From Deltaproteobacteria bacterium RBG_13_61_14 (GTDB taxonomy: Bacteria; RBG-13-61-14): a DNA stretch of 6,483 nucleotides. Shown here one piece after another: positions 1,838 to 3,787 of the stretch. Below the pieces are notes generated by a model that worked only from the letters and a program-made list of their open reading frames with translations, was not told the origin of the DNA and did not search any database. The stretch spans positions 3,527 to 10,009 of the forward strand of contig MGQK01000024.1 of the NCBI GenBank assembly GCA_001797815.1, written 5' to 3'. The translations under genes were made by a program, and so were the position numbers. How positions within the stretch are numbered: position 1 is the stretch's first letter; the number at the start of each line of letters is the position of its first letter.

Positions 1838-1916
1838 GCGCGGGTGAGGCTTTCGGCCGTGAGCTCCCTTCGGGTCTGAGCCTCAGGGTCGAAGACAGCC
1901 GAACGGGCACCCGCGC
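1838..1916. repeat. Long interrupted hairpin sharing arms with the glnS-end repeat
   Basis: GCGCGGGTG (1838-1846) and CACCCGCGC (1908-1916) pair over 9 bp. Inside them TTCGGC (1852-1857) pairs with GCCGAA (1898-1903), and CTGAGCCTCAG (1876-1886) is a further local palindrome, so the whole can fold into a stacked stem. It begins 12 nt beyond the stop of the esterase remnant on the minus strand, where that gene's terminator would be expected. The outer arms match those at 1005-1025: CGCGGGTGAGG is identical over 11 nt and CACCCGCGC over 9 nt. It may be a REP-like element that gained about 58 nt, or an RNA structure. Confidence 0.45.
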
Positions 1917-1927
1917 CCCTTGCGGAC

Positions 1928-2040
1928 CTAGGGCAAATTAGGCAGGTATTTTTCGAACCAGGCCAGCGGGGTTTCGGCAACGAAGACGTGGGCGCCGGGG
2001 TGGACGTCGTGGATAACTTTATCCGGCGCGCCGGCGAGGG
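1928..2040 (-). pseudogene. C-terminal remnant of a second esterase (alpha/beta hydrolase)
   Basis: The minus strand reads LAGAPDKVIHDVHPGAHVF, then VAETPLAWFEKYLPNLP and a TAG stop. This matches the end of the intact esterase at 2780-3787: 29 of 33 residues agree over LAGAPD...YLP, and 83 of 100 bases agree between 1941-2040 and 2796-2895 without gaps. Only 4 residues differ against 17 base changes, so the two copies diverged while selected as protein. The piece retains the probable catalytic His of HPGAH, but homology ends abruptly near 2040 and the nucleophile-bearing body is gone. Twenty bases further on lies the stop codon of the HepT-like toxin. It has no start of its own and is almost surely non-functional. 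It may be the displaced original 3' end of the esterase or the last trace of a tandem paralogue. Confidence 0.85.
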
Positions 2041-2060
2041 TGGAGACCGGCGCGACGCTA

Positions 2061-2411
2061 TTACTCTGTTGAATCTTTTTCCAGGATTTTTTCTAACTCC
2101 GCAATCAAGGCAGGAAGTTCTTCCTGCACGGTGCGCCAGACGATATTCAGGTTGATCTTGAAATAGGCGTGGATCAATTTGTGACGCATGCTGATCATGT
2201 CGTCCCAGGCAATCTGGGGATGGGCCTGGCGGAATTCTTTGGAGATTTTGCTGGCGGCTTCCCCCACGACTTCCAAACACCGAACCAGGGAATGGGTGAA
2301 GGGACGATCGGTCTCGAGGTCTTTCCGGGTGCGCCCTTGCGCGTAGCCGACCGCCTCCCGGCTGGATTCCAGGATGTGATACAGGCGATCCTCGTCCTCA
2401 AGCCGCGACAT
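2061..2411 (-). CDS. hepT: HEPN-domain toxin, HepT-like (DUF86)
   Basis: A 116-residue all-helical protein, probably the RNase toxin of an MNT-HEPN toxin-antitoxin pair. The signature R-X4-H-X-Y is intact as RHKLIHAY: Arg76, His81 and Tyr83, in the usual setting [15 protein letters not shown]. In characterised HepT proteins Arg and His form the RNA-cleaving site, and the Tyr is AMPylated by MntA to silence the toxin. Upstream, [18 protein letters not shown] is the family's first conserved helix pair. I chose the ATG at 2411, giving the typical [16 protein letters not shown] start; it overlaps the antitoxin's 3' end by 14 nt, implying coupled translation. An upstream in-frame ATG at 2456 would add 15 atypical residues. 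No strong ribosome binding site precedes 2411. The 3' end abuts the esterase remnant. The motif is complete, so the toxin looks active. Confidence 0.88.
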
Positions 2412-2703
2412 ATTGAACTTCAGCCGATTGCAGCACCCGGTTCCGGAACCGATCACTCAAATCCTCGGGCGTGCGCAAATCCACCTCTTTCCCCAGGACC
2501 TGAGATAACTCCCGCTCCATCCGGGCCAAGGCCAAGAGACCCGGTTCCTGTCCAGGCTCAAATTCGACCAAAATATCAATGTCACTGTCCGGCCGGAAGT
2601 CTTCCCGGAGAATGGAGCCAAAGAGAGCGAGTTGGCGGATGCGATGCTTCCGGCAAAACTCGGCGATTTTCTCCTTTGGAATTTCAATCCCATGGTAGGT
2701 CAT
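2398..2703 (-). CDS. mntA: MntA-like minimal nucleotidyltransferase antitoxin
   Basis: A 101-residue minimal nucleotidyltransferase and first gene of the pair. The catalytic signature G-S-X10-D-X-D is complete: Gly29-Ser30, then Asp41 and Asp43 in [11 protein letters not shown], with a likely third acidic ligand at Asp75 ([10 protein letters not shown]). Characterised MntA antitoxins use ATP to AMPylate the Tyr of the partner HepT motif, and this function is inferred from the neighbour and the intact site. The length is typical of the single-domain family. The start is well supported: GGAGG at 2713-2717 precedes the ATG by 9 nt. Its own promoter lies at 2733-2761. It is co-directional with, but separately promoted from, the esterase whose stop lies 76 bp upstream. 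Antitoxin first, toxin second, with overlap, should keep antitoxin synthesis ahead. Confidence 0.92.
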
Positions 2704-2732
2704 GCTCGCCTTCCTCCGCTTTCTCGGGGACT

Positions 2733-2761
2733 AGTATAAACGAGCTTATCCTGGCGGTCAA
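2733..2761 (-). promoter_or_regulatory. Sigma70-type promoter of the mntA-hepT operon
   Basis: On the minus strand TTGACC (2761-2756, 5/6) and TATACT (2738-2733, 5/6) are separated by the optimal 17 nt. The expected start near 2726 gives a leader of about 23 nt that contains the GGAGG. The promoter lies between the esterase stop and mntA, so the module carries its own expression signals. No dyad operator is evident over it. Confidence 0.65.
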
Positions 2762-2779
2762 GCCGATTCACATCTGTAT

Positions 2780-3787
2780 TCAAGGCGACCGAAAAGGCAG
2801 GTATCGGTTAAACCATGCCAGTGGAATTTCGGCAACGAAAACGTGGGCGCCGGGATGGACGTCGTGGATCACTTGGTCGGGCGCCCCGGCCAGGGCGTAG
2901 GCCTGTTGGATGAAGGCAAAGGCTTGGCGGGCGGATTTGATCGGGAAGATGGGGTCGCGCTCGCCGCTCTGGATGATGAGCGGCCGGGGCGCGATCAGCG
3001 CGGCCACATCGTAGTAATCCAGGACCCCATCTATCCGGGCCAGGTATTGGCAACGGCAGTGGATCAGGGTGGTGTGCCACATGCGGTGATGCATGATCAG
3101 GTTGCCGGAGGCGACCGTGAGTTTGACCCTCGGGTCCATGGCGCCTGCGAACAGGGCCGTCACGCCGCCGTTGCTCAGGCCGACCACCCCGATCTTCTCG
3201 GGGTCCACTTCGGGCAGGGTTTGCAGCAAGTCTATCCCGCGCTTGGCCATCCACACCCGCTGGCCCATGGGCGGGAACTGGAAATGCCGGGGCAGCGGCC
3301 ACTGGGCGTGGATCAACTTGGGATGGATGTCGGTCAGGTCCTCATGCTCGAGGTTAAGGGCGAGGACGATGTAGCCCTTGCTGGCCAGCAGGTCGCCATA
3401 GTAATACATGTTTTTCGGATCGAAGGTTTCATGGGCGCGAAAGTCATGGCCATGGAGCGCGAGCACCGCGGGCAGCTTCTCGGCCGCCGGCTGGAGCGGC
3501 CGGGCCAGCCAGCCGGTGGTGACGTGCCCGGGCCGGTCGTGGAATTTGACCTCCTGGAGCTTGTAATTCTCCCGGGTCTCTTTCTCTCCAAACTCCGGCG
3601 CCAGCGCCACCGCCTCCGGCGGCGGGCCGTTATAGAGGACGTCGGCCAGAAAGGCCCGGGTCCGGGTCTGCCAGGCCGCGAATTCCTGCGGCGAGGCATT
3701 CGGCGGAAAAGATTTCTCCGCGGCCGCCAGGCTGAGGGCCCAAAAGAAAGCCGCTAATGAGCACCCGAGTAGCCATAGCTTTTTCAT
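2780..3787 (-). CDS. Secreted alpha/beta hydrolase, acetyl-xylan esterase / dienelactone hydrolase type
   Basis: A 335-residue probable carboxylic-ester hydrolase exported by Sec. A signal peptide covers residues 1-23 (MKKLWLLG, a hydrophobic core, then AAA before Glu). The core has the oxyanion-side LALHGHDF (Leu110-Phe116), the nucleophile elbow GLSNGG with Ser205, Asp278 in SGERDPIFP, and His315 in HPGAHVF, giving a complete Ser-Asp-His triad. The substrate is not readable; acetylated polysaccharides are one possibility for the family. I chose the ATG at 3787 because the longer frame from 3865 would put 26 polar residues ahead of a clear signal peptide. Only a weak AGAAG precedes the ATG. 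It diverges from the M20 peptidase across 107 bp. Its last 100 bp before the C-terminus recur as the remnant at 1941-2040, and the toxin-antitoxin module sits directly downstream. A dipeptidyl-type hydrolase is possible but less likely at this length. Confidence 0.85.
   Translation of the reverse strand: MKKLWLLGCSLAAFFWALSLAAAEKSFPPNASPQEFAAWQTRTRAFLADVLYNGPPPEAVALAPEFGEKETRENYKLQEVKFHDRPGHVTTGWLARPLQPAAEKLPAVLALHGHDFRAHETFDPKNMYYYGDLLASKGYIVLALNLEHEDLTDIHPKLIHAQWPLPRHFQFPPMGQRVWMAKRGIDLLQTLPEVDPEKIGVVGLSNGGVTALFAGAMDPRVKLTVASGNLIMHHRMWHTTLIHCRCQYLARIDGVLDYYDVAALIAPRPLIIQSGERDPIFPIKSARQAFAFIQQAYALAGAPDQVIHDVHPGAHVFVAEIPLAWFNRYLPFRSP
2796..2895. repeat. Direct repeat copy of esterase 3' end (partner at 1941-2040)
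   Basis: These 100 bases inside the esterase match 1941-2040 in the same orientation, ungapped, at 83/100 positions, offset by 855 bp. The longest identical runs are 13-14 nt (1972-1984, 1986-1999, 2001-2014). Between the copies lie the mntA-hepT module and its promoter. Confidence 0.85.

Follow-up and report, generated by a model that had tools for sequence, protein, structure and literature searches.

By what route toxin–antitoxin modules that lack a recombinase travel along chromosomes is a long-standing question; published papers state that they are mobile, not how. It is raised by the window, a stretch of 6,483 nt (contig 24, bases 3527-10009) from the 4.7-Mb genome bin of Deltaproteobacteria bacterium RBG_13_61_14, a member of a thinly sampled phylum, in which a mntA-hepT operon lies between two copies of the 3' end of an esterase gene. 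The features concerned, in window coordinates, are:

1838-1916, minus strand: GC-rich hairpin downstream of the remnant (fold -53.9 kcal/mol; arms match in L095 and L096)
1928-2048, minus strand: remnant, a displaced 3' end of the esterase that closes with a separate TAG stop at 1928-1930; the homologous part, 1940-2048, is 82% identical to 2795-2903 and in frame
2049-2794, no strand: insert between the repeat copies, 746 bp, delimited by the repeat edges
2061-2411, minus strand: hepT, predicted HEPN-family RNase toxin of 116 aa with an RX4HXY motif (RHKLIHAY); PF01934, 2.8e-24, 85.6 bits
2398-2703, minus strand: mntA, minimal nucleotidyltransferase antitoxin of 101 aa with a GSX10DXD motif; PF01909, 1.5e-17
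2733-2761, minus strand: operon promoter TTGACC-17-TATACT, read from the sequence
2780-2794, minus strand: last five codons of the esterase including the stop (TTT CGG TCG CCT TGA), supplied by the insert; outside the repeat, with a different end in the remnant
2795-2903, minus strand: repeat partner of 1940-2048, the duplicated 3' segment of the esterase within the intact gene, from the repeat comparison
2780-3787, minus strand: intact secreted alpha/beta-hydrolase (acetyl xylan/glucuronyl esterase-like) of 335 aa; PF22244, PF05448; one intact copy in the genome

The initial annotation had placed a repeat of the esterase 3' end on both sides of the module, and the comparison agrees: the two segments form a direct repeat of 109 nt, 82% identical, at an offset of 855 (BLAST E 4e-25 for a search space of 1e8), and both copies are in frame with the esterase C terminus on the minus strand. 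On that strand the remnant reads TLAGAPDKVIHDVHPGAHVFVAETPLAWFEKYLPNLP, and the matching C terminus of the intact esterase reads ALAGAPDQVIHDVHPGAHVFVAEIPLAWFNRYLPFRSP. Across the 36 codons compared, the remnant contains neither an indel nor a stop; there are 20 differences, 12 of them at third positions, with synonymous changes in 10 codons and amino-acid changes in 7. Toward the module, the homology breaks off 15 nt short of the end of the esterase gene, and the last esterase codons, FRSP*, are absent from the remnant, which has NLP* as its last residues and the hairpin behind it. At the opposite edge of the insert, the homology of the remnant stops 12 nt past the hepT stop, a distance given earlier as 20 bp. 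The repeat occurs exactly twice in its stretch and is absent from every other sampled stretch, and an esterase search of the genome returned only the intact gene and the remnant. Compared with shuffled sequences the hairpin reaches only z = -1.4, and it lacks a U tract, so that its role as a terminator is putative; because its arms recur elsewhere in the genome (L095 3429-3479, L096 456-505), it may belong to a dispersed palindrome and not be a terminator of the esterase itself.

In class I HEPN/MNT systems, RNase toxicity is neutralised by adenylylation. The window has the arrangement of this class, a PF01909 gene directly upstream of a PF01934 gene and overlapping it, here by 14 nt, and it contains both class I HEPN/MNT motifs, GSX10DXD in MntA and RX4HXY in HepT. 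Against the narrow NCBIfam equivalogs, HepT (30.3 bits) and MntA (48.5 bits) score below the 60-bit cut-offs, and the pair is assigned to the broader HEPN/MNT family rather than to those equivalogs. The promoter (2761-2733) lies 18 nt past the esterase stop, and the insert consists of promoter, mntA, hepT, and essentially nothing more; the earlier description of a complete operon with its own promoter and little flanking DNA holds, as does the statement that the module has no integrase. A domain search found no transposase in the insert, and its edges show neither an inverted repeat nor a short target duplication.

The same architecture is seen at many other HepT modules. We sampled 42 HepT modules from ~30 other genomes, with up to 20 kb around each, and found 14 bracketed by direct repeats (45-209 nt, 81-98% identity), compared with 2.7% of control points in the same stretches; in 1,000 permutations the mean was 1.07 of 42, with a maximum of 4. 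Among controls, none of 30 ribosomal S7 loci and 3 of 30 PIN toxins were bracketed, as against 9 of 28 HepT modules in short loci like those used for S7 and PIN. At 4 of the 14 bracketed loci (L168, L173, L176, L180) the repeat has more than two copies in the stretch. A strict survey, in which the repeat had to be present exactly twice in its stretch, gave 9/42 versus 0.85% for the control (2,000 permutations: mean 0.29, maximum 3; binomial p 8e-11). Repeats of different HepT loci do not match one another and are therefore derived from the target. Many of them are the 3' end of the adjacent gene, and the targets, named from our reading of the translations, include gyrB (L178), a glycosyltransferase (L179), purA (L192), a type I restriction subunit (L189), and others. 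In nine gene-end cases (the window, L144, L178, L179, L185, L189, L192, L201, and L204) the module-side edge lies no more than 24 nt from the end of the target gene. The inserts mostly measure 0.7-0.9 kb, and because they share no terminal motif and their flanks vary in length, no site-specific recombinase is indicated.

One of these loci (L201), in the complete genome G048, can be compared with its empty site, its genus being represented by seven genomes in the collection. Both copies at this locus map to one single copy in each of three relatives (G121, G120, and G116), and the flanks match on either side. The copies share 97.4% identity, but neither exceeds 90% with any congener, which indicates that the target was duplicated on insertion of the 832-bp insert and was not imported from another species; the target gene gains a new stop at the junction. 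This locus appears to be the structure of the window in young form. As judged by genome comparison, the empty site in this genus demonstrates that insertion of this form does occur for HEPN/MNT modules. At the gyrB locus, a relative (G122) has a single gyrB end, but its far flank is not syntenic. Separately, in G116 a TnpB/IS605-type insertion (L274 5822-7186) lies ~160 bp from the end of the gene that bears mntA-hepT in G048.

We propose that the window probably arose by insertion with a long target duplication, the target being the 3' end of an esterase gene present once, and that it is an old member of this class. A piece of ~746 bp, comprising mntA-hepT, the operon promoter, and no more than a few bases on the flanks, would have inserted at the esterase 3' end, where ~109 bp of the gene end would have been doubled, leaving one copy on either side of the module. 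The copy joined to the gene body would have kept its frame and reached a new stop 15 nt inside the insert, which would have left the esterase intact; its partner, which has another stop and is followed by the hairpin, would have been pushed 855 bp downstream and then diverged. The module would have been retained by addiction, since loss of MntA would free the HepT RNase. Our simplest guess for the mechanism is that fragments may be inserted between long staggered breaks and then fixed by addiction. Of the two models in the initial annotation, that of a gene-restoring insertion which displaces the native end fits the structure best, although the foreign replacement end that it included is not required. 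The annotation's argument that this is not a recent simple duplication is borne out, yet an old target duplication suffices, because the repeat identities at other HepT loci spread over 81-98%. Several observations count against the proposed target duplication: no empty site turned up for the window among the three genomes of its phylum; the 18% divergence puts the window at the low-identity end of the survey; the deviant base composition, as described below, lies in the intact tail and not in the remnant, the reverse of what simple decay of the remnant would give; and the share of differences at third positions, also given below, is somewhat, though not significantly, raised.

The collection holds three genomes of the window's phylum, including its own, and in the other two (G001 and G002) we found no empty site and no syntenic locus. 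Their esterase homologues are 51-59% identical to that of the window, lie in unrelated surroundings at separate loci (one at a contig edge), and are not in tandem; as outgroups in a phylogeny of the tails they are too distant to resolve the remnant from the intact tail. Two contig scans with the esterase returned nothing close besides these two MAGs, and M20 peptidase orthologues in the relatives stand without the window's neighbours. Within the phylum, 2 of 18 HepT loci are bracketed, with a partial repeat at a further contig (C123), figures that are unconvincing by themselves; the phylum alone proved little, because comparable direct repeats occur in the background, several of them across 344 kb of the genome that contains the window; one is a gene-end remnant of HU with no link to a toxin. 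In that case (L095 5730-5882 and 7204-7367, contig C3), the 3' end of an HU-like gene and a downstream stem are duplicated with 84% identity around a lipoprotein gene, and the remnant has a 13-nt frameshift: the same architecture without a toxin. The partial repeat (L075 10161-10230 and 10358-10426) belongs to another mntA-hepT pair, 17 nt past a gene stop, where the hepT 3' end and ~70 nt are repeated 198 bp downstream at 87% identity.

It is possible, though in our estimate unlikely, that the incoming DNA brought the end of a related esterase along with the module, in which case the esterase would be a hybrid with a foreign tail and the remnant would be the native one; the route would call for recombination within the body of the gene and for a step of end joining. 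Base composition speaks for this reading: GC3 is 0.45 in the last 20 codons of the esterase, whereas the body has 0.84 and the remnant 0.70-0.76; no other 20 codons in a row in this gene have a lower GC3, 1.7% of 174 genes of the genome show a drop of such size, and at every synonymous difference within these codons the intact copy has A/T where the remnant has G/C. The argument, however, comes from one short tail. The share of differences at third positions (12/20) is somewhat, not significantly, higher than the ~44% roughly estimated for a neutral remnant facing a constrained gene, and these codon-position counts do not clearly exclude a neutrally drifting remnant. A second mntA-hepT pair, on contig C5 of G001, bears on the question from both sides. 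It lies between 109-nt copies, 78% identical, of a segment that covers the leader and 5' end of an adjacent gene (L081 2146-2254 and 3222-3327), for which G002 has a single copy (L091, contig C693). This single copy resembles the remnant in the leader (12:2), as a donor end would predict, but the coding part points the opposite way, toward the intact copy (14:3). Such a mosaic would fit excision by recombination between the repeats, and uneven decay could also give it; the upstream flanks of the two loci do not align. In the clean case of G048, whose two copies resemble each other more than they do any congener, no foreign end took part.

Less likely than a donor end is an origin from tandem esterase paralogues, between which the module would have landed before the downstream one was reduced to its 3' end. 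This was the other model in the initial annotation, and it is weakened by the present data, although partial tandem duplications do occur in this genome (the HU-like gene with its remnant, and a tandem pair in L096) and the remnant is free of frameshifts and stops. The homology in the HU case runs through the stop and the downstream stem, whereas that in the window ends before the stop, on the module side; moreover, the genome contains one intact esterase, the homologues in the two relatives are not tandem, and the enrichment of repeats around HepT modules would need a second, independent reason. Chance or dispersed repeats, with the module merely between two copies of a common element, might account for survey loci with more than two copies but are hardly credible at the esterase and are refuted for the window, whose two-copy repeat is coding and recurs in the genome only as gene and remnant, while the enrichment persists in the strict survey.

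The target duplication that we prefer for the window has a counterpart in restriction-modification genes, for which passages of PMC3031569 and PMC3874152 describe insertion with long target duplication (Nobusato et al. 2000, Gene 259:99; Furuta et al. 2010). As portrayed there, those insertions likewise concern a small addictive gene complex, produce long target duplications of variable length, and were found by comparing related genomes; the window insert, too, is flanked by target-derived direct repeats of tens to hundreds of bp, here 109 nt of esterase. Unlike in those passages, the inserted unit is a HEPN/MNT toxin–antitoxin pair, often at gene 3' ends, and the target gene is kept whole. 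In gene order, in the PF01909/PF01934 pair, and in both motifs, which the relevant passages of PMC7641770 give as HEPN/MNT signatures, the module resembles the HepT/MntA system as presented in parts of PMC7641770, which covers roughly 16,000 class I pairs, and of PMC2701414. Strain-level, recent HEPN/MNT insertions in Thermus thermophilus HB8, where the module sits in the lysine operon, and in Deinococcus radiodurans are noted in a passage of Makarova et al. 2009 (PMC2701414), and the passages at hand from PMC7641770 and PMC2701414 do not describe flanking target duplications or restoration of gene ends. Toxin–antitoxin pairs, HEPN/MNT among them, also occur in Tn3-family transposons (PMC7157771), which similarly place such a pair on a mobile unit, but the window has no transposase, terminal inverted repeats, or short target duplication. 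In the open-licence literature we found no report that ties HEPN/MNT mobility to long target duplication, a result that is not proof of novelty.

Some genomic islands integrate at gene 3' ends and restore them. The window is like these in that the gene end is duplicated, the frame is kept, and the displaced native end is left as a repeat; it differs in having neither an integrase gene nor a conserved attachment core, in an insert below 1 kb, and in repeats that vary in length among loci.

The frequent bracketing by duplicated ends offers a clue to the spread of these very common modules, which have no recombinase of their own. The scar, consisting of long direct repeats, often of gene ends, with single-copy sites in relatives, turns this spread into a process that can be counted and tested, and it links toxin–antitoxin modules to a pattern known for restriction-modification genes. 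It also calls for caution in annotation, as short esterase-, gyrB-, or purA-like remnants beside such modules would be insertion scars, not separate genes.

Near the insertion, at 1062-1526, the window encodes a solo HTH regulator similar to restriction-modification control proteins (PADLOC, up to 48 bits); the window contains no restriction system. MntA matches are also present on plasmids. Finally, the three bracketed PIN-domain toxin loci (L250, L254, and L256) have direct repeats of 52-227 nt, and because of them the insertion process may not be limited to HEPN/MNT modules.
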